Of a DNA stretch of 33,397 nt, positions 256 to 27,917 are shown in pieces; the stretch's first letter is position 1; every line of letters starts with the position of its first letter. A program made the translations under genes and the position numbers. The notes beneath the pieces were generated by a model. It was not told the DNA's origin and searched no databases. It was given only the letters and a program-made list of their open reading frames with translations. The stretch spans positions 1-33,397 of the forward strand of contig JAICUQ010000017.1 in NCBI GenBank assembly GCA_025935755.1, read 5' to 3'. This DNA is from Chthoniobacterales bacterium. Its GTDB lineage: Bacteria; Verrucomicrobiota; Verrucomicrobiia; Chthoniobacterales; UBA10450.

Positions 256-2043
256 TTGCCCCCGTTCCTTCATAACGTTGCTGACTTAATTCGGCGCGTT
301 CTCTTTCTGGCGCGGCCGTACGGCAGGGGCAAGCTTGCCGCGATTTTCTCGCTGTCGCTGGCACAAGCATTGTTCCAGGTCATCGGCATCACATCGATCT
401 TTCCCTTTTTAGCGATTGCCGCTGATCCCGAGCGGATTCGTCGCTCCCATTTTGGTACGAAGTTTCTAAGTCTGTTCCCGCACATGGAAGACAGGCAACT
501 GCTTCTTGTTGCCGGCATCATCGCCATTGTCGCTCTTCTTTTATCAAATGCGGTGAACCTGTTGTCGGAATATGCGCGCACTCGTTATACCCAGGACTTT
601 GGCCATTGGTTGCGCGTTCGACTGCTGCGCCGAATGGCGTCTCAGCCATACACTTATTTTCTTCAACGCAACTCCGGCGATCTCCTGAAGAAAATTCTCG
701 GTGACGTGGCGAATTATACAAACGGCGTGCTCCTCCCGTTGCTGGACAGCGTGGCCCGCGTCCTGACGGCATTGCTTTTGTTGGCGACACTATTTTTGGT
801 GCAACCGGTGATCGCGATTTCGGCGGCGGTTATTCTGGGCGGGTTCTACGCAATCACTTTCCAGCTTCTTACCCGCAAACGCCGCGAGGTGAATGAGAAT
901 CTGAAAACGCATGTCGGCGGCCAGTTCCGCGAAGCGCAACAGATGCTGGGCGGGATCAAGCCCGTCAAAGTGCATCGGGCGGAAGAACTTTTCCTCGGTC
1001 GATTTGCGAATCATTCCGCGATCGTAGCGCGGATGAATGCATGGCTGCCGGTTTTTTCCAACAGCGCCCGGTATGTTGTGGAGCCGCTCGCTTTTGGCGG
1101 TCTCGTTGTGGCGGTGCTCCTACTCGCAGCAAAGGGACGCGATTTCTCTGACATTCTTCCCAATCTCGGTGTCATGGCACTGGCAGGTTATCGGCTGCTG
1201 CCTTCGCTCCAGTTGCTTTACGGACAGTTGACTCAGGTCAGTTCAATGCGCCATGCGGTTGATGAGGTGTACGACGAGTTTGCTGCTGCCGAGACTGAGA
1301 GATCCACTCCGAGTGTCGTTAGTATCGAACCTGTCACGCCTGTGCAGGATCTTACTTGGAATAACTCGATCACGCTGTGTGACATCGGGTTCCACTATCC
1401 GGGTGTTTCCCGGTCTGCGATCGAAGGGCTTTCAACAATTATTCCGAAGAACAGTTCGCTCGGCGTGATTGGCCCGACGGGCTCGGGGAAATCGACGTTC
1501 GTTGATTTGTTGCTTGGCCTTTACCTGCCAACAACAGGCGAGATCCTCATCGATGGTCAGACGCTCACGCCCGCGCTCGTGCCTGCGTGGCAGGCTACCA
1601 TCGGATACGTGCCGCAGGATATTTTTCTTATCGATGACACGGTCGTCCGAAACGTCGCGTTTGGTCTACCGGATGAGAAGATTGATCACACACGGGTGCG
1701 CGAAGCTTGCGCTATGGCGCAAATACTCGATTTCATCGAAGCGGAACTGCGCGATCGCTTTGAAACGAAGGTTGGCGAACGCGGCGTCCGCCTTTCTGGC
1801 GGACAACGTCAACGGATTGGGCTTGCTCGCGCGCTTTATCATCGTCCATCGCTGTTGATTCTGGATGAAGCGACCAGTGCGCTCGACGTTGCGACGGAAG
1901 CAAAGCTACTCGAGGCGTTGGGTGAGCTTAGCGGCAAGCTTACCATGATTGTGGCGGCGCACCGTCTCAGTGCTGTGGCGAATTGCGATCAACTGATCGA
2001 CTTGTCTAATGAAATGCACGTTGTTGTTGCCGGTGCGAACTGA
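256..2043 (+). CDS. ABC exporter, fused membrane and ATPase domains (MsbA/PglK-type glycolipid flippase candidate)
   Basis: This 595-residue half-transporter has an N-terminal six-helix exporter domain (about residues 20-340) and a C-terminal ATPase. Walker A GPTGSGKST lies near residues 405-413, the signature LSGGQRQR near 514, LILDEATSALD near 535 and the H-loop AAHRLSA near 568, so it should be an active homodimer. Exporters of this build flip lipid-linked sugars (MsbA, PglK) or export lipids. With no Wzx-type flippase in the window, a role in flipping the repeat unit is a reasonable inference but not shown. The start is TTG at 256, with GGAG five bases upstream. It is the first complete gene of the plus-strand run. 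Confidence 0.9.
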   Translation: MPPFLHNVADLIRRVLFLARPYGRGKLAAIFSLSLAQALFQVIGITSIFPFLAIAADPERIRRSHFGTKFLSLFPHMEDRQLLLVAGIIAIVALLLSNAVNLLSEYARTRYTQDFGHWLRVRLLRRMASQPYTYFLQRNSGDLLKKILGDVANYTNGVLLPLLDSVARVLTALLLLATLFLVQPVIAISAAVILGGFYAITFQLLTRKRREVNENLKTHVGGQFREAQQMLGGIKPVKVHRAEELFLGRFANHSAIVARMNAWLPVFSNSARYVVEPLAFGGLVVAVLLLAAKGRDFSDILPNLGVMALAGYRLLPSLQLLYGQLTQVSSMRHAVDEVYDEFAAAETERSTPSVVSIEPVTPVQDLTWNNSITLCDIGFHYPGVSRSAIEGLSTIIPKNSSLGVIGPTGSGKSTFVDLLLGLYLPTTGEILIDGQTLTPALVPAWQATIGYVPQDIFLIDDTVVRNVAFGLPDEKIDHTRVREACAMAQILDFIEAELRDRFETKVGERGVRLSGGQRQRIGLARALYHRPSLLILDEATSALDVATEAKLLEALGELSGKLTMIVAAHRLSAVANCDQLIDLSNEMHVVVAGAN

Positions 2044-5053: not shown

Positions 5054-5128
5054 TGTTTGTTGCAGGCCGGTGCCGTTTATCACTTAGACTTCGAAAATGA
5101 GTGGTGTAAGCACCGGGAAAAACGAGCA

Positions 5129-6337
5129 ATGAGTTACGACCACGAACTCCTGCACAGTTGTCCGCCGGTATCCGGAACCGTGTTCGGCAGAAAGGACGAC
5201 GGCTACCCAGCACGCCTGGCTCAGGCGAAATTCCTCTCGGCGCAGATGCGCAGTCGCAAGCCATTTTGTTTTTTGCGCATGGGCGACATGGAACTCAGAT
5301 ATCTTCTGGCTAAACAGCATAACCGACTCGACGGCATCGAGCCTGGGACCGGGCCGATCTCCGGAACGCGCGCGTACGGAAATCCCGGCCTGACCGCAAA
5401 ACATGCGGAGCGATTACGCCGAGCTTATGAAGGGGCGGATTATGTTGATTTTCACGAGCAGAATTGGCCAAACGAACATTTGATATCCCGATTAGAGCTT
5501 CGGAGAGCGCCCGGTTCTTATCGCAACCTGACCAAAGAAACATCGCTTGTATTTCTCACATGGACCGAGAAGGAGTTTAAGGAATACTGCCGGAACCGCA
5601 GGATTGGATTTGCTGCAGCCGAGGCGCGCTTGTTAGAACTCCTTTCACAAACACCTGAATTCAGGGAAGCGGCTGCGGATTACTGGCCCGACAACGCAGA
5701 GATTTTTTATCATCAAGTGCGAAACGATGGCCGCGATCTCGACGCCAATCTGGATGTGATAAAAGAAGACCTGCAAGGATTCGCTAAGGAGCATCGACTC
5801 GACACAATCTTTCTGTCGCTGGGAGGCGGAGCGAAGATTTTGAGCTACGAATTATCCCGGGAACTGGGAATTTGTTGTTTTGACTTTGGGGCGATGATCC
5901 GGGCGCTGACGTACAGCGGGTCCGATGGAAACCGCGCGGCGCGTTCGACGCATTCGCCCTTTCTGTTTCGCATTCCGTTCGACACCTACATGACCGCTCT
6001 CGAGCGAGCTTTCCCCGGCCTGACGCCGGCTGAGCTTCTGGCGAAAGCGCACGGCCAACTTCTGCTGGAATTGATGAGAAAGGAGGTCGGATGGACGTCA
6101 GTTTCCTGGGATTTCGATTTTAACGAACAAAATGTGTCTGCGTTTCGTGACGCATTCCGGGCGTACCGTAAGCGCTATCGAAAATTGTTCGGTTCATCTT
6201 CGGCGACCAAGATGGAGCGTGCTGGATTTCTTCATTTTTGCGGAAAACACAGGCTGACCCTGGAGGGGCGATTGTTCCTTTTCGTGTTCCGCGTGAAGAC
6301 ATTACTGCGGCACTGCTCCCGCCGAACTTCGGGATGA
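5129..6337 (+). CDS. Hypothetical protein with GT-D-like glycosyltransferase features
   Basis: This protein has 402 residues from the ATG at 5129. The same frame also opens at TTG 5057, but no ribosome site is seen there. Two regions recall the GT-D fold (DUF1792): FCFLRMGDMELRYLL near residues 43-57, where the D-x-E of the family's G-D-G-E motif is kept as D-M-E, and FLSLGGGAKILSYELSREL near 226-244, like the family's L-G-P-x-A-x-x-L-A-Y-x-L. It then continues through an acidic/aromatic region to a basic C-terminus. GT-D enzymes transfer a hexose from a UDP-sugar. The middle is unlike the members I know, so this is a candidate, supported also by its place among transferases. Confidence 0.6.
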   Translation: MSYDHELLHSCPPVSGTVFGRKDDGYPARLAQAKFLSAQMRSRKPFCFLRMGDMELRYLLAKQHNRLDGIEPGTGPISGTRAYGNPGLTAKHAERLRRAYEGADYVDFHEQNWPNEHLISRLELRRAPGSYRNLTKETSLVFLTWTEKEFKEYCRNRRIGFAAAEARLLELLSQTPEFREAAADYWPDNAEIFYHQVRNDGRDLDANLDVIKEDLQGFAKEHRLDTIFLSLGGGAKILSYELSRELGICCFDFGAMIRALTYSGSDGNRAARSTHSPFLFRIPFDTYMTALERAFPGLTPAELLAKAHGQLLLELMRKEVGWTSVSWDFDFNEQNVSAFRDAFRAYRKRYRKLFGSSSATKMERAGFLHFCGKHRLTLEGRLFLFVFRVKTLLRHCSRRTSG

Positions 6338-11130: not shown

Positions 11131-11958
11131 ATGGCAGCCGCACCATCTCGTGTAAATCATGCCTTGTTAAGCTTCAAGGCAAGGGCTGTGTTCAATTTCA
11201 ATCGTTACGTCAGGAAGCAAATCATTCTACAAATCGGCCATGGCGGCTTGGGAGATAATCTCTTTTTGAGTCATATTCCTCAAATAGCGAAGCAAAGCAG
11301 TGACGTACACAGCGTGTTTATTTCCAATAAGTCGGTATTCCGCGACGCGGCCTATAAATCTTTGATTTGGACCTCCAACCCGTACGTGGATGGATTTGTG
11401 GATGAGCAGGGGATCGAGATCGTTGGGCCGCACACCCGGAATGTTCGGGGCAGATCGTTGGATACGTTCTTGTTAAAGGCGGGATTCGACAACCGAATTT
11501 CCCATGTGGACCCGGGCTGTAACTTGTTAGACCAGTACATGCTTGGCCTGGGGCTTGATGATGGATTGAGATTCCATGAACCGAAAATTTACAAGCGCAT
11601 TCCCGAAAGACATGAATACGAGAATGCCATTATTTATGATCCAAATTTTATTACGAACGCCGGCGAAATTTCCAGCGAAGCCGTTCGCGAATTCTTCAAC
11701 CGGGAGGAGGTACGCCCGAATTTCCAGATGCAGCAGTACGCCAACGTTATAGATCTTCCGGAGATTACCGACCGCATTTCCGCAACGAGTATGGAGGATT
11801 TTTGCTCACTGATTGTGTCGTGTAAGGCGCTATATTGTTTAACCACTGGGACTGCCACATTAGCCGCTGCTCTAGGCAAACCTTGCACTGTTTTGTATGG
11901 CGATGGAGTTAACACGATTTACCATCACTCGCGCATGCATCGTTATGTGCACGTTTAG
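11131..11958 (+). CDS. GT9-like (heptosyltransferase-related) glycosyltransferase, short
   Basis: This protein has 275 residues, about 75-100 shorter than a usual GT9. The N-terminal loop reads IILQIGHGGLGDNLFLSHIP (about residues 30-49), matching the G-G-L-G-D-x-L of the family. The C-terminal part, SLIVSCKALYCLTTGTATLA followed by AALGKPCTVLYGDG, corresponds to the donor-site S/T-G-x-x-H/T-L-A-A-A-L-G-x-P segment. The length suggests a compact GT-B protein or a diverged one. A basic N-terminal 25 residues may touch the membrane. An AGGG lies close before the ATG. A gap with tiny ORFs precedes it. Confidence 0.65.
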   Translation: MAAAPSRVNHALLSFKARAVFNFNRYVRKQIILQIGHGGLGDNLFLSHIPQIAKQSSDVHSVFISNKSVFRDAAYKSLIWTSNPYVDGFVDEQGIEIVGPHTRNVRGRSLDTFLLKAGFDNRISHVDPGCNLLDQYMLGLGLDDGLRFHEPKIYKRIPERHEYENAIIYDPNFITNAGEISSEAVREFFNREEVRPNFQMQQYANVIDLPEITDRISATSMEDFCSLIVSCKALYCLTTGTATLAAALGKPCTVLYGDGVNTIYHHSRMHRYVHV

Positions 11959-14215: not shown

Positions 14216-15169
14216 GTGAGAGTGCAGGCGCCGTTTGGTTTTGTGACCGGCTGCCATGCCGGGGACAAGTTGATGGTTCAGGCAACCCTGGCAAGCATGA
14301 GGCATTATTGTCCACATGTTCCGATATGCCTGGTGGTGGACGGCGATCTGTACGTCTCAGATCTGGAGCGCGAATATGATTTAATCGTTTTACGTGTTCT
14401 GGAACTGCCTTCAAAACAAATGCGGAGCCTTATAGGTGGTAACGGGCGCGCCAAACTCGCTGCGATTTGGGAGGGGCCTTTTGAGTTTTATGTATGGCTC
14501 GATTCGGACGCGATTGTCTGGGGTGATTTTACTCCACAGATCCGCACTGACGTCGATTTCCAGGTCTTTTGGAGCGAGATTTCAATCCCGGCCGACGCCA
14601 CGGAAATTCCTCCCTGGTTGCCGCATTTTTATTTTGATCCCCAAAAACTCCGACGTTTTGATGCTGATTTTGATTGGCGTGGGAAAGCGTATTTTTCTTC
14701 CGGGGCTTTCGCGTGCAGGCGAAACGTTATCGGATTCGACGAATGGACGACCGTCGAGTCGTGGGGGAGAGAGACGCCCGGGTTGTTTGGTAATTTCTAC
14801 GAGCAGCCAATATTAAATTACTTTGTCCATTCAATGGCCGAACGGGGAGAAATGAACGTCACGATGTCCAATTTACAGCACATCGGCGGACATCATGGTT
14901 TGGACGAGCTAAAACAAGATTGTGCCGGGAGCAAATGGCGTTTCCCGAAACAGATTCGACGACCGCGTGTCGCACATTTTTGTGGACGCAAGCCGTTTAT
15001 GTTTGATCGCAAGGCATATTCTCATCCGTTCACGATCGCGCGATTGGAACATCATCGGCGTGACCGCGGGGAACTCGGCGCCTGGCTGGCCATGTTGAAG
15101 GAAGAAGCCCCGGTTATCGGCACCAAGGTCCAACGCCGCCTTTCGAATTTGATTGCAGGATCAAGATGA
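14216..15169 (+). CDS. GT8-like nucleotide-sugar glycosyltransferase
   Basis: This protein has 317 residues. It begins FGFVTGCHAGDKLMVQATLA, the opening strand and donor helix of GT-A transferases that resemble GT8/GT24. The D-x-D metal motif is VWLDSDAIVWGD with Asp96 and Asp98. A glycine-rich HIGGHH near residue 224 and a late VAHFCGRKPFM recall the metal-binding H-x-x-G-x-x-K-P-W of GT8, with His at the right distance. GT8 enzymes are retaining. The GTG at 14216 follows the previous TAG by four bases; GTG 14222 is an alternative. The acceptor is unknown. Confidence 0.65.
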   Translation: MRVQAPFGFVTGCHAGDKLMVQATLASMRHYCPHVPICLVVDGDLYVSDLEREYDLIVLRVLELPSKQMRSLIGGNGRAKLAAIWEGPFEFYVWLDSDAIVWGDFTPQIRTDVDFQVFWSEISIPADATEIPPWLPHFYFDPQKLRRFDADFDWRGKAYFSSGAFACRRNVIGFDEWTTVESWGRETPGLFGNFYEQPILNYFVHSMAERGEMNVTMSNLQHIGGHHGLDELKQDCAGSKWRFPKQIRRPRVAHFCGRKPFMFDRKAYSHPFTIARLEHHRRDRGELGAWLAMLKEEAPVIGTKVQRRLSNLIAGSR

Positions 15170-18207: not shown

Positions 18208-18278
18208 CGATCGACCCAACCAACGACGACTTTGAGTTTCACGTTTGTGCCTTACAATGTTCGCCTCGCCTTCCGCTC

Positions 18279-19676
18279 ATGGTTACGCATGAAGTAACGT
18301 TCTATCTTGCTGCCGCTGCGTTGCTCGTACTGACGGTGGAGAGCTGTATAAAGCTACTGAACGGGGACAGCTTTTCGATCTCGCTGGCCGTATATGTCAC
18401 CGTGTTCGGGTGGTATTTTGTCGATCCTTTTATCAATCCAGAGCAGTACGAATATGTTCCTTCGTATTTGATTAATCAAAGTTACGGGCAGGTATTCTTG
18501 TTCCTGGTTGGGTATCGGTTTTTCATGCCCGTCGCGGTGCGTTGGATCGTTCGGCGGCGAGATAGCGCGGCTTTTCGTCCGCAACGCTTTGCTCCCGAGC
18601 AGATCTTGATTACTGCCGGAGCGATCTGGTTTGTGCTTCTGGTGATCGGTATCTACCGGCTAAACGGTGATGTAATCGGAGCTCTGTTTCCGGTGGATTC
18701 GCGCTCAGGCGCAACGATGTGGGGGCGCGGCGCAATAGACACCTCTGGATCTGGATTTCTCGTCGCCTCCGCCGGTTATATGTTCAATGCAGTTACTGCG
18801 TTTCTTGGCGTTCTGATATTCTTTCAGCGCACCACTTTCTGGCGACTGGTCGCGGGCGCGATGTTTGTTATTTCGCTCCCTTACTTCATGCTGGAGGGAG
18901 CACGCAGCCATTTCCTTGCCGTGATCTTGCCGTTCATCATCACCTATTTGTTTTATGGCCGGCATCCGCTGATCATCAAAGTCGCGATTCTGGCGGGGGC
19001 ATTCGTGTGCCTCGATGAAGGGTTCAAACTGGTCACGGCATTCCGAGGTACTGGTTTCAGAGAATTACTGGCTGCCGAGCATCCTTACGAGCTTGTCGAT
19101 GAAGATTTGCGACAGAGCGGGCTGAACATGATTCAGGAGCTTTGTTTCGCCAATGCTTATCTTGGGTCGGGTGCGGCAACTCCGGCCTATGGTGGGCGAT
19201 ATCTCAACGAGCTGCTTAACTTCGTTCCGCGCGTCATTTGGCCCTCAAAGCCACTGATCGGATTCGACTACGCGAAATGGCGCGGCTTAGAAACCCCGGA
19301 CGGCGGAATTTACGCGACGATTTCCACCGGGATGATTGGCGGTGGTGTTTTGAATTTTGGTACGTTCTTTGGACCAATCGCCGCTGGCATTATCATGGCG
19401 ATTTGGACTGGTCTGCTCATCCTGTGGTGGCAACAACGAACTTCGCTTTTGCGCCTGATGCTGTTCATGCTCGGTGCGGGTCTTACCTTTAATCTCGGTC
19501 GAGACATCACGCTTCTGGTCCTTTGGCCTGTCGTCTTTGCGTACTGTTTCATTCGTCTCATCGAGATCTGGTCGGCAAAACAGTCCCGCGTCCCGCAGAT
19601 CACAACGCGATCACCACATTTCACTGATCGAAATCTTCACCCGGCAGGTGCATCACCTGCTCGACTGCGTCGGTAG
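18279..19676 (+). CDS. wzy: Wzy-type oligosaccharide repeat-unit polymerase
   Basis: This is a 465-residue multi-pass membrane protein with roughly ten hydrophobic segments. The segment LNFVPRVIWPSKPLIGFDY (near residue 312) contains the P-R-x-x-W-P-x-K-P motif I associate with repeat-unit polymerases, and it lies in the large periplasmic loop. It is followed by ISTGMIGGGVLNFG and two more helices. Wzy joins lipid-linked repeat units in the periplasm. The frame is open for 90 codons further upstream, but that stretch overlaps the GT4 gene and lacks hydrophobic character, so I take ATG 18279. It is the last gene of region A and converges on the tRNA. The symbol is by function only. Confidence 0.82.
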   Translation: MVTHEVTFYLAAAALLVLTVESCIKLLNGDSFSISLAVYVTVFGWYFVDPFINPEQYEYVPSYLINQSYGQVFLFLVGYRFFMPVAVRWIVRRRDSAAFRPQRFAPEQILITAGAIWFVLLVIGIYRLNGDVIGALFPVDSRSGATMWGRGAIDTSGSGFLVASAGYMFNAVTAFLGVLIFFQRTTFWRLVAGAMFVISLPYFMLEGARSHFLAVILPFIITYLFYGRHPLIIKVAILAGAFVCLDEGFKLVTAFRGTGFRELLAAEHPYELVDEDLRQSGLNMIQELCFANAYLGSGAATPAYGGRYLNELLNFVPRVIWPSKPLIGFDYAKWRGLETPDGGIYATISTGMIGGGVLNFGTFFGPIAAGIIMAIWTGLLILWWQQRTSLLRLMLFMLGAGLTFNLGRDITLLVLWPVVFAYCFIRLIEIWSAKQSRVPQITTRSPHFTDRNLHPAGASPARLRR

Positions 19677-19699: not shown

Positions 19700-19772
19700 T
19701 GGAGGTAAGGGGATTCGAACCCCTGGCCTTCTCATTGCGAACGAGACGCTCTACCAGCTGAGCTATACCCCC
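19700..19772 (-). tRNA. tRNA-Ala (anticodon CGC)
   Basis: The minus strand folds into a full cloverleaf of 73 bases. The acceptor stem GGGGGTA pairs with TACCTCC and includes the G3-U70 wobble that identifies alanine tRNAs. The D arm is GCTC/GAGC, the anticodon stem TCTCG/TGAGA, the loop TTCGCAA (anticodon CGC, reading GCG), and the T arm AGGGG-TTCGAAT-CCCCT. The discriminator is A. CCA is not encoded. It faces the end of the Wzy gene. Confidence 0.95.
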
Positions 19773-19869: not shown

Positions 19870-21366
19870 CTACAGCTCCATCGCGTGTGGTATCGTCCTC
19901 GCGCGCACGGTCTCCGCTTCTTCACTGGAGTGGGAAGGTGCGCCTGAGAGGTCCAATGACTTCATCGCTTCAGTGACAGACTTCATGGTGCCACTGTGCT
20001 CGCGAAGATCTTGAAAATCCGCAGAGGCGACGGCGTGGCGTGTCGATCGAGCGGGACCGCCGACCGAAAGCAAATGTGAAATCGTGAATATCGCGACCAG
20101 GTTTAGCATCGCTAGAAGGATGCTTGCTGCGAGCGCGCCGGCGAATTTTGGATTCCGCTTTGACCATTGCCAAACGCGTACGGGGGCTGCGATGCGCCGC
20201 GCAATAATGGGTCGTCCTTCCAGCCAACGCTCGAGATCTTCCGCTAGTTCACCCGCGGAAAAATAGCGCGCGTCTGGTTCGCGCTCCAAGCATTTCGCAC
20301 AAATCATTTCCAGATCACGATCGACTTCAGGAGCAAATGTTCTCAGTCTTGGAGCAGTTTTCTCGCTCGCTTCCTTGATGACCGCCAAGGCGTTTTCACC
20401 GACGAAAGGCGCTCGTCCTGCGAGCAGATAGAAAAGCAAAGCGCCGATACCATAGATATCCGCGGCGGCGCTTAGATCTTTTGCCGGGCCGTGTGCCTGC
20501 TCCGGAGCAATGAAACCGGGTGTGCCGAAACTGGTCATCGTTCGTGTAAGATCAGTGCGCGTTTCGAGGGATTTAGCGAGACCGAAATCGCTCACCAACG
20601 GTTCGCCGAAGTCGTCCAACAAAATATTTCCAGGTTTCAGGTCACGGTGCAGAACGCCTTCGCGATGCGCGTATTGCATGGCGCGCGTCACTTTGGCAAT
20701 CAGACGGACGATCCGACGCGGATCACGCCGCAGGGTTTGTGCAACGTCCAATAAACTTCCGCCGGCCGCGTACTTCATTGTGAAGAACGGCAGGCCGTCT
20801 TCCGTTTCTCCGAGCTCGTAAATCGGCAGAATGTTAGGGTGACGAAGGCTTGCTACCGTCACAGCTTCGCGTCGAAACCGCTCGAGCGTGTCACGCGAAT
20901 CAGCGTGCACGCTTAGGATGCGTTTCAAAGAGACGATTCGTTGCGAGTTTCGTTGGCGAGCCCGGTAGATTACGCCCATTCCGCCACGTCCGATTTCCTG
21001 GAGTATCTGGTAGTTCCCGATGCGCCATTCGGTACCGCGGACATTTACTTCGTCCAGCGCCTCATCCCATTCTGCTGCATTTTCACCATCGCATTCGAGT
21101 CCCTGCTGGAGAACACAGCTTAAACAGCAGCCATGTGCCACACGAGCTGGCGACCCGCATCGTTTGCAGGGAATCACGTCAGATTGATCGTTAGAACGAA
21201 CAGGAACGTTGCGTGCGGGCATTGGAAATTGTCGAGACGCCTGCAGCAACTGTACAAACCGGCCGCAACTGCTAATACGCGAATGGATCGCGACTCCATC
21301 CGCTAATCGCCCAATGTGCGAATCAATATCCGCCGTCTGGGGAAACACCATGTCCTTATTTGCCAT
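19870..21366 (-). CDS. Membrane-anchored Ser/Thr protein kinase (PknB/Hanks type) with N-terminal zinc ribbon
   Basis: This protein has 498 residues. A zinc-ribbon-like C67-x2-C70...C81-x2-C84 precedes the kinase domain (about 118-385), which has the glycine loop IGRGGMG, Lys148, HRDLKPGN with Asp242, DFG with Asp260, and APE at 287-289. All catalytic residues are present. WLEGRPIIARR ends the domain, as in related kinases, and a single membrane helix (about 409-431) follows. Only ~67 residues lie beyond it, far shorter than the repeat-rich sensor regions usual in this group. The ATG 21366 has GAGGG upstream. It is divergent from an ECF-type sigma factor, the usual partner in these bacteria, and may sense the envelope. 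Confidence 0.92.
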   Translation of the reverse strand: MANKDMVFPQTADIDSHIGRLADGVAIHSRISSCGRFVQLLQASRQFPMPARNVPVRSNDQSDVIPCKRCGSPARVAHGCCLSCVLQQGLECDGENAAEWDEALDEVNVRGTEWRIGNYQILQEIGRGGMGVIYRARQRNSQRIVSLKRILSVHADSRDTLERFRREAVTVASLRHPNILPIYELGETEDGLPFFTMKYAAGGSLLDVAQTLRRDPRRIVRLIAKVTRAMQYAHREGVLHRDLKPGNILLDDFGEPLVSDFGLAKSLETRTDLTRTMTSFGTPGFIAPEQAHGPAKDLSAAADIYGIGALLFYLLAGRAPFVGENALAVIKEASEKTAPRLRTFAPEVDRDLEMICAKCLEREPDARYFSAGELAEDLERWLEGRPIIARRIAAPVRVWQWSKRNPKFAGALAASILLAMLNLVAIFTISHLLSVGGPARSTRHAVASADFQDLREHSGTMKSVTEAMKSLDLSGAPSHSSEEAETVRARTIPHAMEL

Positions 21367-21849: not shown

Positions 21850-22632
21850 GTGTTAAACGAATTTCATAACGACAGCACAACTTCCCCCGGCACGTTTGTC
21901 ACTACGTGTTGGAATCTGATTCTCTCGGGCGCGGACTCGAAACGTGGCGACCGCGAGATTCGTTCTGCGCTTGCAGAACTCTGCCGAATTTATTGGCGGC
22001 CGATTTTTTTCTTTGTAGCGCGGCGTGGTTATTCACCGGAGGACGCCGAGGACCTGACGCAAGATTTTTTCTTGAGGATACTGAAAGGTGATTGGCTTCA
22101 AAAGGCAGATCCCACGCGGGGCCGTTTTCGTTCGTTGCTACTGAAGTCCGTCCAAAATTTCTTAAATGATGCTGCCGACAAGATCAAAGCCCGAAAACGC
22201 GGCGGCGATGTAAACTTTGTTTCATGGGATCCCTGGATGACGGAGGCTCCCTCGGAATTGGCGCTTTCCAATGAGGCACTCAATTCGTGGACTGCGGAAA
22301 GACTGTTCGATGCGGGGTGGGCTGCGACGGTCGTACAACGCGCAATTCGCCGGCTCCGTGACGAATGTGAGCGCAAAGGGCGTCGGCGAGTTTTCGAGGT
22401 ACTCAATCCCTATCTGACTGCGGAACGAGATGACATTTCGTACGCGCATCTCGCGACGAAACTGCGAGTTGCGGAAGGCACCGTTAAAAAATTGCTTTAT
22501 CACATGCGGCAGCGGTATCGCTTTTTACTCCGGGACGAAGTGGCGCAAACAGTGGCGGATCCTTCCGAAGTGGAGGACGAACTGCGCTATCTGTGTGGCG
22601 CGCTCGCCGCGCGCTCGGCCGCAACGGCTTGA
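21850..22632 (+). CDS. ECF-type RNA polymerase sigma factor, Verrucomicrobia/Planctomycetes type
   Basis: This protein has 260 residues, longer than typical ECF sigma factors (about 180). Region 2 includes LCRIYWRPIFFFVARRGYS and PEDAEDLTQDFFLRIL (about residues 45-78), the form seen in large ECF factors of these phyla. Region 4 is the helix-turn-helix near 195-225, with YAHLATKLRVAEGTVKKLLY. It starts with GTG at 21850. It is divergent from a Ser/Thr kinase, and such pairs are commonly linked functionally: the kinase may phosphorylate the sigma factor. Whether it drives the flanking polysaccharide genes is inference. Confidence 0.88.
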   Translation: MLNEFHNDSTTSPGTFVTTCWNLILSGADSKRGDREIRSALAELCRIYWRPIFFFVARRGYSPEDAEDLTQDFFLRILKGDWLQKADPTRGRFRSLLLKSVQNFLNDAADKIKARKRGGDVNFVSWDPWMTEAPSELALSNEALNSWTAERLFDAGWAATVVQRAIRRLRDECERKGRRRVFEVLNPYLTAERDDISYAHLATKLRVAEGTVKKLLYHMRQRYRFLLRDEVAQTVADPSEVEDELRYLCGALAARSAATA

Positions 22633-22947
22633 TAAACTCCTCCGCTGCTCGAGCCATGGAGGTCATTCCGTAACTCTGGAGACGACTCGTTGGGCGTGGA
22701 CATAAAAATCTTGTGGACAAAAAAAGAGTCGGAACCTTCCGGCTTCGCTTCCGTAGAACTAACCGTGCGGGACATTCCAGGGTTTCAGAGGCGTCGTTCC
22801 TGACACAGCTAAAAACGGGTTCTCCCGCTTCTGAAATCTCGCGGGTGCCTAACAAGTAGGGACGCACTGTGGGCAATTCAAAGCAGCAGACAGTAAAGAT
22901 TCACCTTGCAGCTGCAGGCAGGTGACCAAGGGCGGCAGCCTGTCGTG
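22633..22947. other. 315-base non-coding stretch before the sugar transferase
   Basis: No gene was recognised. It holds a 17-base-spaced direct repeat, GTGGACATAAAAA at 22696 and GTGGACAAAAAAA at 22713, and a 10-base palindrome GGAACCTTCC at about 22731-22740. A small hairpin, CGGGTTCTCCCG near 22817-22828, has a T-run beside it when read on the minus strand. It presumably contains the promoter of region C, but no clear -35/-10 pair stood out. Confidence 0.3.
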
Positions 22948-23658
22948 ATGGGCTCAACGATAAAAACGATCGATATCGCCGGCGGCGTTCCGCTGAGTTC
23001 CGGCCAGACAGTACCTGTTTGGAAATCGGCTCTGGATGTGCTGTGCATTGTTGTTTCGGCGCCGTTGTGGCTTCCGCTGATGCTATTGCTAATGCTCGTT
23101 ACGCGATTGGCCTCGCCGGGTCCGGTTTTCTATCGACAACGTCGCGTCGGGTTAGGCGGCAGACAATTTTTGATCTGGAAATTCCGAACCATGAAGGTCA
23201 GCGCCGAGACTGAGACTCACGAACGTTATTTCGAAGAGTTGATGCGGACGAACTGTGTGATGACAAAGCTTGATGCGAATGGCGATCCCCGCCTCGCTCC
23301 GTTCGGCCGGATTCTCCGTGCCAGCGGCCTGGATGAGTTACCTCAAATTTTTAACGTGTTAGCAGGCGACATGAGCCTGGTTGGACCAAGGCCGTGTCTG
23401 CCGAATGAGTTTGCAAATTACGAGCCGTGGCAGCGCAAACGAGTTAACGCTTTGCCGGGGCTGACTGGCTTGTGGCAGGTGAACGGCAAAAACAAAACCA
23501 CTTTCAACGACATGATCAGAATGGACCTGGCTTATGCCAACAACATGTCGCTGCTCCTCGACATGAAAATTATGCTCAAGACCGCTGGCGTAATCGCTCG
23601 GGAAGTTTTCGAATGCCACCAGGAGTCGCGGCGTGCGCGGCACCCTTACAGCCCCTGA
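22948..23658 (+). CDS. Bacterial sugar transferase (polyprenyl-phosphate sugar-1-phosphate transferase, initiating)
   Basis: This protein has 236 residues from ATG 22948; a TTG at 22906 in the same frame is an alternative. A hydrophobic re-entrant helix (about residues 25-50) precedes SPGPVFYRQRRVGLGG and FRTMK. The catalytic dyad is Asp129-Glu130 in GLDELPQIFNVLAGD, followed by MSLVGPRPCLP and PGLTGLWQVNG. This is the PglC/WcaJ catalytic core without the long multi-helix N-terminus. It loads the first sugar-1-phosphate on undecaprenyl phosphate at the inner membrane and so starts repeat-unit assembly. It opens the second polysaccharide module. Confidence 0.92.
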   Translation: MGSTIKTIDIAGGVPLSSGQTVPVWKSALDVLCIVVSAPLWLPLMLLLMLVTRLASPGPVFYRQRRVGLGGRQFLIWKFRTMKVSAETETHERYFEELMRTNCVMTKLDANGDPRLAPFGRILRASGLDELPQIFNVLAGDMSLVGPRPCLPNEFANYEPWQRKRVNALPGLTGLWQVNGKNKTTFNDMIRMDLAYANNMSLLLDMKIMLKTAGVIAREVFECHQESRRARHPYSP

Positions 23659-25943: not shown

Positions 25944-27917
25944 ATGGCTGAAATGCGACGCGAACAACAACTAAATTACCACTCCGGTATCGGTGCAAAC
26001 GACGTTCTCTTTGCGCTGTTCAGACGGAAATGGACCATCATCTCCTGGACACTTCTAGGTATAGGCGCTGCTGTAGCTTTCTTTTTTCTTTACCCACCTT
26101 CTTACCAGTCGGATGCCAAATTACTTGTACGTTATGTGCTTGAAAGGAGTGCCGTTGATCCAATCGATAACACCACGAAACCAAATGTAACCCAGACCAG
26201 TGCCAAGTCGGTTGACAGTATCATCGATGCTGAAGTCCAGATTCTGACCAGCTGGGATTTGGCTGTACAAGTCGCAGAAGCCATCGGCTACAAGCGGTTC
26301 GGCACCGCTTCGAAGGAGGCAGCAGCTGCCATCATCAGCGCAAATCTAACGGTCACCTCTAACAAGGGCAGCGATGTTATTTTGGTCTCTTACAAAAGCC
26401 GTGATCCACAGCTGGCGCCTCTCGTGTTGCAGGAACTCTTGAGCCGTTATTTCGTGAAGCACCTTGAGGTCCACCGGTCCGCCGGAGCCTTCGATTTTGT
26501 AACTCAGCAGACCGATCAGGTTCGGGCCCGCTTGAACCAAACGGAAGACGCGCTCAAGAAATTAAGGGAGAAGGCCGGAATTGTTTCAACTCTGGACGAT
26601 GGGTCTGACGCACTGAATGACGAAACCGCAGACATTCAGAAGCAACTGAACGTCGCGGAAGCGGATCTGGCGGAACAGCAGGCCCTTGTCAAACAAACAG
26701 GAGAGAAAAAAGCGAACAGCTGGACCACGCGCAAATCGAAGCCGGACAAAACTCCTGGTGCGGAGAAAGCCCTTCTGGCTGGAAAACAGGCAAAAGTTGA
26801 CGCGCTCAAAGCGCGACTTGCTGACACTCAACAGCGGACGAAACAACTCAGTGAGCTGCGGCCACAAATCCAGGACCTGGAGCGCAAACGCGACATGGAT
26901 GCGAACAATTATAAATACTTCGCAGCATCATTGGAAAAGGCCCGGATCGACGAGGCTCTCGATCCGTCTAAGATGCCCAACATAAGCGCTGTTCAGCGTC
27001 CCTCTCCTCCTTCTCTTGACACCAAAACACGCGATAAGGTCGCGCTTTGCCTCGCGGGCGGCGGATTAGGCCTGGGCATAGCGCTTGCCCTGCTGCGAGG
27101 ATTAATTTTGAGTCGTACAATCGGACGGCCACTGGAATTGGAAAGCCGGCTGGAGATTCCGCTGATGCTTTCGATTCCTTACCGTAACGGCTCCAACGGA
27201 CACAAGCCTTTACCTGCAAACGGTTCTTCACCTAATTCCAGAGCGCTTACTACAAAAGGACACAAGTCGAAGCTCGCCCCGTGGGATGCGGGCCATTTCA
27301 TAAGACCTTATTGCGATGCGATTCGAGACCGGCTCGGTTTGTATTTCGAACTGAATCATCTGACACATAGACCGAAGCTTGTAGGTGTTACCGGGTTTTC
27401 CGAGACCGCGGGAACTTCCAGCCTCGCTGCCGGTCTCGCTGCTTCGCTTTCGGAAACAGACGACGGAAAAGTTCTGTTGGTCGATGTTAACCTTGGTCCG
27501 GAAGATGTTGCTCCGTTTTTCGAAGGCAAACCCGCCTATCCGCTAAACTCGGCGCTTAAGCCGTCCGGCGAAATGACGTCAGCTGCCGATAACTTGTATT
27601 TGGCCACAGTCGGATCGCATAACGGTGCTGGGCCAGCGCAACTGGGCCTGAAGAAGTTTTTCGACATGATGCCAAACATGAAGGCCAGCGATTTCGACTA
27701 CATCATTTTCGATATGCCGCCGCTTCGTGAAACAAGTCCTACCTGGGGTATGGCTGCTTTCATGGACAAGCTATTGCTTGTTGTAGAAGCTGAAAAGAAC
27801 AGCCGGGACGTGGTCAAACGTGGCTACGCAAAGTTAGTCCAGGAACGGGATAACGTGTCAGTCTTGGTGAACAAGGCCCGTTCCCGTATTCCTCGCTGCC
27901 TGGACGGCGAATCCTGA
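25944..27917 (+). CDS. Wzz/GumC-like chain-length co-polymerase fused to a degenerate BY-kinase-like domain
   Basis: This protein has 657 residues. Membrane helix 1 lies near 30-50 and begins the Wzz domain. Coiled-coil stretches (about 190-215 and 230-350) fill the periplasmic part, and helix 2 is near 365-388 after a Pro-rich SAVQRPSPPSLD. The cytoplasmic C-terminal domain resembles tyrosine autokinases: VLLVDVNLG (Walker A', near 509) and FDYIIFDMPPL (Walker B, near 584). The Walker A position reads GFSETAGTSSLAAGLA with no lysine, and no tyrosine cluster ends the protein. It probably sets chain length but may not bind ATP in the usual way. It starts 10 bases after the acyltransferase. Confidence 0.87.
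   Translation: MAEMRREQQLNYHSGIGANDVLFALFRRKWTIISWTLLGIGAAVAFFFLYPPSYQSDAKLLVRYVLERSAVDPIDNTTKPNVTQTSAKSVDSIIDAEVQILTSWDLAVQVAEAIGYKRFGTASKEAAAAIISANLTVTSNKGSDVILVSYKSRDPQLAPLVLQELLSRYFVKHLEVHRSAGAFDFVTQQTDQVRARLNQTEDALKKLREKAGIVSTLDDGSDALNDETADIQKQLNVAEADLAEQQALVKQTGEKKANSWTTRKSKPDKTPGAEKALLAGKQAKVDALKARLADTQQRTKQLSELRPQIQDLERKRDMDANNYKYFAASLEKARIDEALDPSKMPNISAVQRPSPPSLDTKTRDKVALCLAGGGLGLGIALALLRGLILSRTIGRPLELESRLEIPLMLSIPYRNGSNGHKPLPANGSSPNSRALTTKGHKSKLAPWDAGHFIRPYCDAIRDRLGLYFELNHLTHRPKLVGVTGFSETAGTSSLAAGLAASLSETDDGKVLLVDVNLGPEDVAPFFEGKPAYPLNSALKPSGEMTSAADNLYLATVGSHNGAGPAQLGLKKFFDMMPNMKASDFDYIIFDMPPLRETSPTWGMAAFMDKLLLVVEAEKNSRDVVKRGYAKLVQERDNVSVLVNKARSRIPRCLDGES

Follow-up and report, generated by a model that had tools for sequence, protein, structure and literature searches.

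The gene at positions 5129-6337 of the window (the whole stretch of 33,397 nucleotides that was analysed) probably encodes a cytoplasmic, metal-dependent glycosyltransferase of a divergent GT-D fold, which would use a nucleotide sugar to add a single sugar residue to a lipid-linked repeat unit and whose C-terminal tail would bind the acceptor or the membrane. Computation supports the fold and the motifs, and it is the metal, the donor, the acceptor and the role of the tail that we infer. Within the context of known systems, the protein is a GT-D branch of a known kind with an added helical extension, and it involves no new principle. GT-D is a rarely described glycosyltransferase fold: in the literature searched, three papers use the exact wording 'GT-D fold'. 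A branch that keeps D-x-E and carries a conserved helical tail would show this fold fitted to polysaccharide assembly in uncultured bacteria; it also singles out well-defined residues for testing. Features of the gene and the main genes of its surroundings are listed in Table 1.

Table 1. Positions of the features discussed, numbered along the window
Feature	Positions	Strand	Basis or remark
Whole gene, probable divergent GT-D-like glycosyltransferase	5129..6337	+	402 aa, ATG start; start supported by orthologs
GT-D-like domain, about residues 31-262	5219..5914	+	PF22882 match; model residues 31-295 aligned to 4phr, Z 10.7
R-x-G-D-x-E motif, residues 50-55	5276..5293	+	D53 and E55 presumed metal/donor site; ortholog conservation
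C-terminal GT-D core motif SLGGGAKILSYELSRELGICCFDFG, residues 230-254	5816..5890	+	profile-profile match over 221-256, probability 29%; alignment
Conserved, predicted helical C-terminal extension, residues 263-402	5915..6334	+	two models and ortholog conservation; no library match
Last predicted helix, residues 378-401, hydrophobic and basic	6260..6331	+	helix in full-length and tail-alone models; may contact the membrane
ABC transporter	256-2043		proposed to flip the unit
Probable Wzy	18258-19676	+	no Pfam match; TIGR04370 (oligosaccharide repeat unit polymerase) at 27.4 bits vs. cut-off of 40
Bacterial sugar transferase	22906-23658		member of the cluster
Wzz-like protein	25944-27917		member of the cluster

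The gene and its orthologs

The open reading frame is confirmed on the forward strand, from an ATG at its first position to a stop codon ending at 6337. The frame stays open upstream as far as a TTG at 5057; however, in each of the five orthologs whose 5' end is covered (L001-L004 and L008/L033), an in-frame stop lies no more than 12 codons 5' of the equivalent ATG, and position 5129 is therefore the likely start. Over 395 codons, the differences at codon positions 1/2/3 amount to 78/59/213 with respect to L001, 83/62/222 with respect to L002 and 105/70/224 with respect to L003. Third codon positions account for most of the differences from these three orthologs, which marks this as a real protein-coding gene under protein-level selection. 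Its GC content (0.54) and GC3 (0.59) both fall between the extremes found among 12 neighbouring ORFs.

Seven distinct orthologs were collected, i.e., the window protein itself, L001, L002, L003, L004, L005 and L008. L001-L004 come from Verrucomicrobia MAGs (that of L003 from sediment), and we infer the same placement for the window and L008, which makes six of the seven; L005 is found on a 4-kb contig labelled Acidobacteria, which may be misbinned. Further loci (L006, L007, L009 and L022-L027) represent either the window again or genomes and contigs already represented and were kept outside the alignments. Within the genus, the gene is present in 4 of 35 genomes, the window's own included, and in the phylum sample it is present in 1 of 387, which is again the window's own. 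Likewise, 1 of 396 sampled genomes from the phylum of the Acidobacteria-labelled contig has the gene, namely that contig's own genome. A pattern scan of 84,980 species genomes yielded at least five loci. Viral contigs gave 89 pattern matches with no relative among them, and the plasmid and phage collections searched contained no relatives.

The GT-D-like core

The sequence-only reading had proposed that a G-D-x-E-like stretch and a second stretch downstream match the two ends of the GT-D fold, with an altered middle between them. Both ends are indeed present: the first motif stretch (FLRMGDMELRYLL) provides R50, G52, D53 and E55, and the second (LSLGGGAKILSYEL) occupies approximately residues 229-242, with SLGGGAKILSYEL found near residue 230. 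They correspond to the two end motifs seen in members of PF22882 (R-x-G-x-x-E and a glycine-rich strand-loop near the C-terminal end of the domain). When three proteins of this branch were aligned with three each from PF08759 and PF22882 (nine sequences), five columns were invariant (R50, G52, G232, G247 and G254), and all of them fall within these two motifs. The complete R-x-G-D-x-E, including D53 and E55, is kept in all six orthologs that cover it, the window protein among them (the seventh, L005, starts at residue 201), and MAFFT pairs it with RFGDGE of GT-D proteins; at the sequence level, the D-x-E anticipated in the presumed donor site is thus in place. In the predicted structure, it is located just after the first strand.

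PF22882 (GT-D-like) is the only Pfam family listed for the window protein, with 27.8 bits against a gathering cut-off of 27 (E 2e-06), which is a marginal pass; the best-matching stretch comprises residues 36-164. In the ortholog alignment, all seven members match this family at E<=1 (best 5.6e-07). Because of these two results, the two end motifs cannot be put down to chance. PF08759 (GT-D) is matched weakly by three of the seven orthologs (best E 0.11), and the window protein gave no match to it at a limit of E 10, where the HMMER filters drop most matches above 0.1. The NCBIfam model NF040628 (GT-D_rel) was not reached either (12.2 bits vs. a cut-off of 75), and the three other PF22882 proteins tried also remained below this cut-off (31.2-35.8 bits). 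It should be noted that L029, a clear PF08759 protein (182.3 bits), also matches PF22882 below the cut-off (21.4 bits), which suggests that PF22882 and PF08759 are neighbouring Pfam families.

All profile tests are limited by the ortholog set, which is small and has little diversity (Neff 1.4). In a profile-profile comparison with three GT-D proteins, residues 221-256 only were aligned (probability 29%, E 5.8e-04, 35 columns), and when the extension of the alignment was forced in hhalign, the first motif was left unpaired. Alignment A3 comprises three of the five PF08759 matches, without the fragments L031 and L032 and with L028 from base 1414 only. Against eight other PF22882 proteins, hhalign returned a probability of 0.4%; nonetheless, the path pairs the R-x-G...E motifs. 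The altered middle is therefore real in terms of sequence, and the profile-profile check that had been suggested gave weak results, whereas the curated PF22882 profile does match. Sequence searches of the PDB revealed nothing credible, either with the window protein (best E 0.054, for an entry with an unrelated name) or with the family profile (best E 1.3).

The AlphaFold2 model, which was predicted from a 6-sequence alignment (L008 was excluded from structure predictions), has a mean pLDDT of 63.5 and a pTM of 0.65; in blocks of ten residues, pLDDT reaches 76-93 at residues 41-60 and 201-250, with much of the rest lower. When the model was compared with the PDB by Foldseek, the top three matches were the DUF1792 GT-D entries 4pfx, 5v4a and 4phr (probability 1.00, E 3.5e-03 to 1e-02), with no PDB match at E<=0.001. 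In VIA-align, for which models without a clear match typically give a best Z of 7 to 8, 4phr scored 10.7 (rmsd 4.2, 200 residues), 4pfx 10.6 and 5v4a 9.9, with GT-D alignments spanning 200-206 residues. Among the folds compared, solved GT-D enzymes give the best superposition with the predicted core, GT-E being next, and the proposal of a GT-D branch is supported by these best matches together with the PF22882 score just above the cut-off.

DUF1792/GalT1 (GT-D, CAZy GT101, PF08759), to which these three entries belong, has two elements in common with the window protein, i.e., R-x-G-D-x-E after the first strand and LGPxAxVLxxDL...G..AID.G near the end of the core. However, the two share only 14-16% identity, PF08759 is unmatched, the middle differs, and the window protein has an extra helical tail of 140 residues. 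Among viral structures, the model matched uncharacterised proteins from a moumouvirus (E 2.0e-04) and an uncultured Caudovirales phage (E 4.2e-04), and it is possible that GT-D-like proteins also occur in viruses.

The C-terminal extension

The orthologs confirm the long C-terminus and show it to be conserved. Among the five full-length rows of the seven orthologs (L004 and L005, cut by contig ends, were left out), pairwise identity averages 0.76 at residues 263-380 vs. 0.72 at residues 31-262, and 0.52 over the last 22 residues; on this measure, the extension matches the core in conservation, with its last 22 residues less conserved. The same extension is found in six relatives (L001-L003, L005, L008 and, as far as its contig end, L004), its identity is 65-73% for the five relatives in alignment A5, and the conserved stretches within residues 263-402 are DGNR, RSxHxPFxFR, AKAHGQ and HFCGxH. 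These residues gave no credible Pfam or NCBIfam family match. The full-length and tail-alone models both predict helices and no strands in the extension, with low to middling confidence. Folded alone, the tail consists of helices only (mean pLDDT 61.3), and a fold search of the PDB with the tail alone returned nothing below E 0.53, although at this pLDDT a missing match means little.

A membrane-binding amphipathic helix in the tail was considered, but the scores do not show one. When the window protein was shuffled 300 times, the best score of each shuffle had a median of 2.28 and a 95% mark of 2.92, and the unshuffled protein (2.62 at most, residues 344-361) falls within that range; among the seven orthologs, the 95% mark is exceeded by L004 alone, and barely (2.95). 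It is conceivable, if rather doubtful, that the proteins make up a glycosyltransferase subfamily of their own, in which a new helical domain (residues 263-402) added to the GT-D core would contribute to the active site or provide a site for the acceptor or the membrane. In the literature searched, neither a description of a second GT-D architecture with a helical domain nor the term 'GT-D-like' was found.

Alternative readings, proposed role and gene context

In the phylum sample, PF22882 gave 12 matches in 11 of 288 genomes. This is a lower bound, given that a six-frame PF22882 search of the window's own genome gave none and missed the 5129-6337 gene itself; for this reason, negative results of such six-frame searches count for little. 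None of the 14 control genomes had a match in the searches for the PF22882 and PF08759 families. The motif could be read in ten of the 12 PF22882 matches: eight lack the Asp of D-x-E and keep the Glu, and two (L010 and L012) have RLGDGE. As judged from these motifs, the window branch keeps a D-x-E form that is absent from eight of the ten. Alignment A4 comprises eight of the 12 matches and leaves out L010 and L012, as well as L014 (a frame without the motif) and L015 (another frame). All eight of L011, L013 and L016-L021 carry [RK]-[IF]-G-x-x-E without the Asp and have a short conserved ...YW tail with no long extension; perhaps they constitute a branch with a different chemistry.

Two alternatives concern the identity of the fold and the integrity of the protein. 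TagA has a C-terminal appendage, which the helical tail of the window protein recalls, and in VIA-align TagA/TarA follow directly after GT-D (Z 9.3-9.5, before a drop to 4.7); since rows within 1 Z count as tied, Z does not distinguish the GT-E rows from the lowest GT-D one (9.9). Nonetheless, it is very improbable that the protein is closer to the GT-E fold (TagA/TarA, GT26), i.e., to a transferase that needs no metal and carries a membrane appendage at its C-terminus. The GT-E alignments are shorter (165-170 residues), Foldseek places GT-D first (E 3.5e-03 vs. 0.31 for TarA), PF22882 is the sole Pfam match listed, and the end motifs are common to the window protein and GT-D. In PMC6493773, the Asp-X-Glu of DUF1792 is described as coordinating Mn2+ and TagA as lacking it, and because of this difference the sequence motifs decide for GT-D, which they favour over GT-E together with the Pfam match. 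With regard to the structural comparison that had been called for, the GT-D entries did come out best, but with GT-E nearly as high. It is hardly credible that the long C-terminus is an artefact, such as the product of a frameshift or fusion: the extension has no family match in Pfam or NCBIfam and the model is weak there, but six relatives share it with core-like conservation, and the artefact is rejected on these grounds.

The remaining alternative accepts a GT-D-like fold but not sugar transfer, and assigns the protein to another glycan modification or to the role of a non-catalytic partner of a neighbouring transferase. Many glycosyltransferase genes are already present in the cluster, and the absence of the first acid of D-x-E in eight of the ten PF22882 proteins of the phylum that were read implies that the broad family need not share one chemistry. 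However, this reading is unlikely in view of the whole R-x-G-D-x-E kept in every ortholog covering it and of the glycan genes found alongside in six of seven loci.

In the favoured reading, i.e., that of a divergent GT-D glycosyltransferase, D53 and E55 would hold a divalent metal, which by analogy with DUF1792 would be Mn2+; this role is suggested by the alignment. The metal would bind the phosphates of the nucleotide sugar, which is probably UDP-linked, and the sugar would be added to an undecaprenyl-diphosphate-linked oligosaccharide, with the helical tail helping to bind the acceptor or the membrane face. Flipping of the completed unit would fall to the ABC transporter and its polymerisation to the Wzy-like protein (Table 1).

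The window is a large repeat-unit polysaccharide cluster, as had been supposed from the sequence, and this is borne out by the ABC transporter, the glycosyltransferases, the sugar transferase, the Wzz-like protein and the polymerase-like match. The cluster also contains two methyltransferases, GT9, GT2 and GT4 proteins, an exostosin (GT47), an epimerase, a FemAB-like acyltransferase and a GT64-like protein that falls just under the family cut-off. L001, L002 (where it is cut), L003 and L033 each have a homologous ABC transporter upstream (46-81% identical), and the gene directly 5' of the GT-D gene encodes a GT9 protein in L001 and L002 and a GT2 protein in L033. The downstream neighbour varies (an epimerase in the window, GT4 in L001 and L005, a methyltransferase in L002 and GT61 in L003), as is to be expected if the enzyme contributes a single sugar to a unit that differs between strains. 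Glycan genes adjoin the GT-D gene in all six of the seven loci for which neighbours were identified, none having been identified for L004.

Several other genes of the window deserve mention. The conserved ORF at 14216-15169 (+), which is 72% identical in L001 and 61% identical in L002, has no Pfam match and a weak NCBIfam match, and its product is possibly a glycosyltransferase. The ORF at 11131-11958 (+), likewise unmatched in Pfam, matches heptosyltransferase II very weakly (E 0.0074) and possibly encodes a shortened GT9-like protein. The run of glycan genes is interrupted by a tRNA-Ala(cgc) gene (19700-19772, -) lying inside the polysaccharide region, a Ser/Thr kinase gene near it (19870-21366, -) and a sigma-factor-like gene (21850-22632, +; 23.9 bits vs. 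a cut-off of 24).
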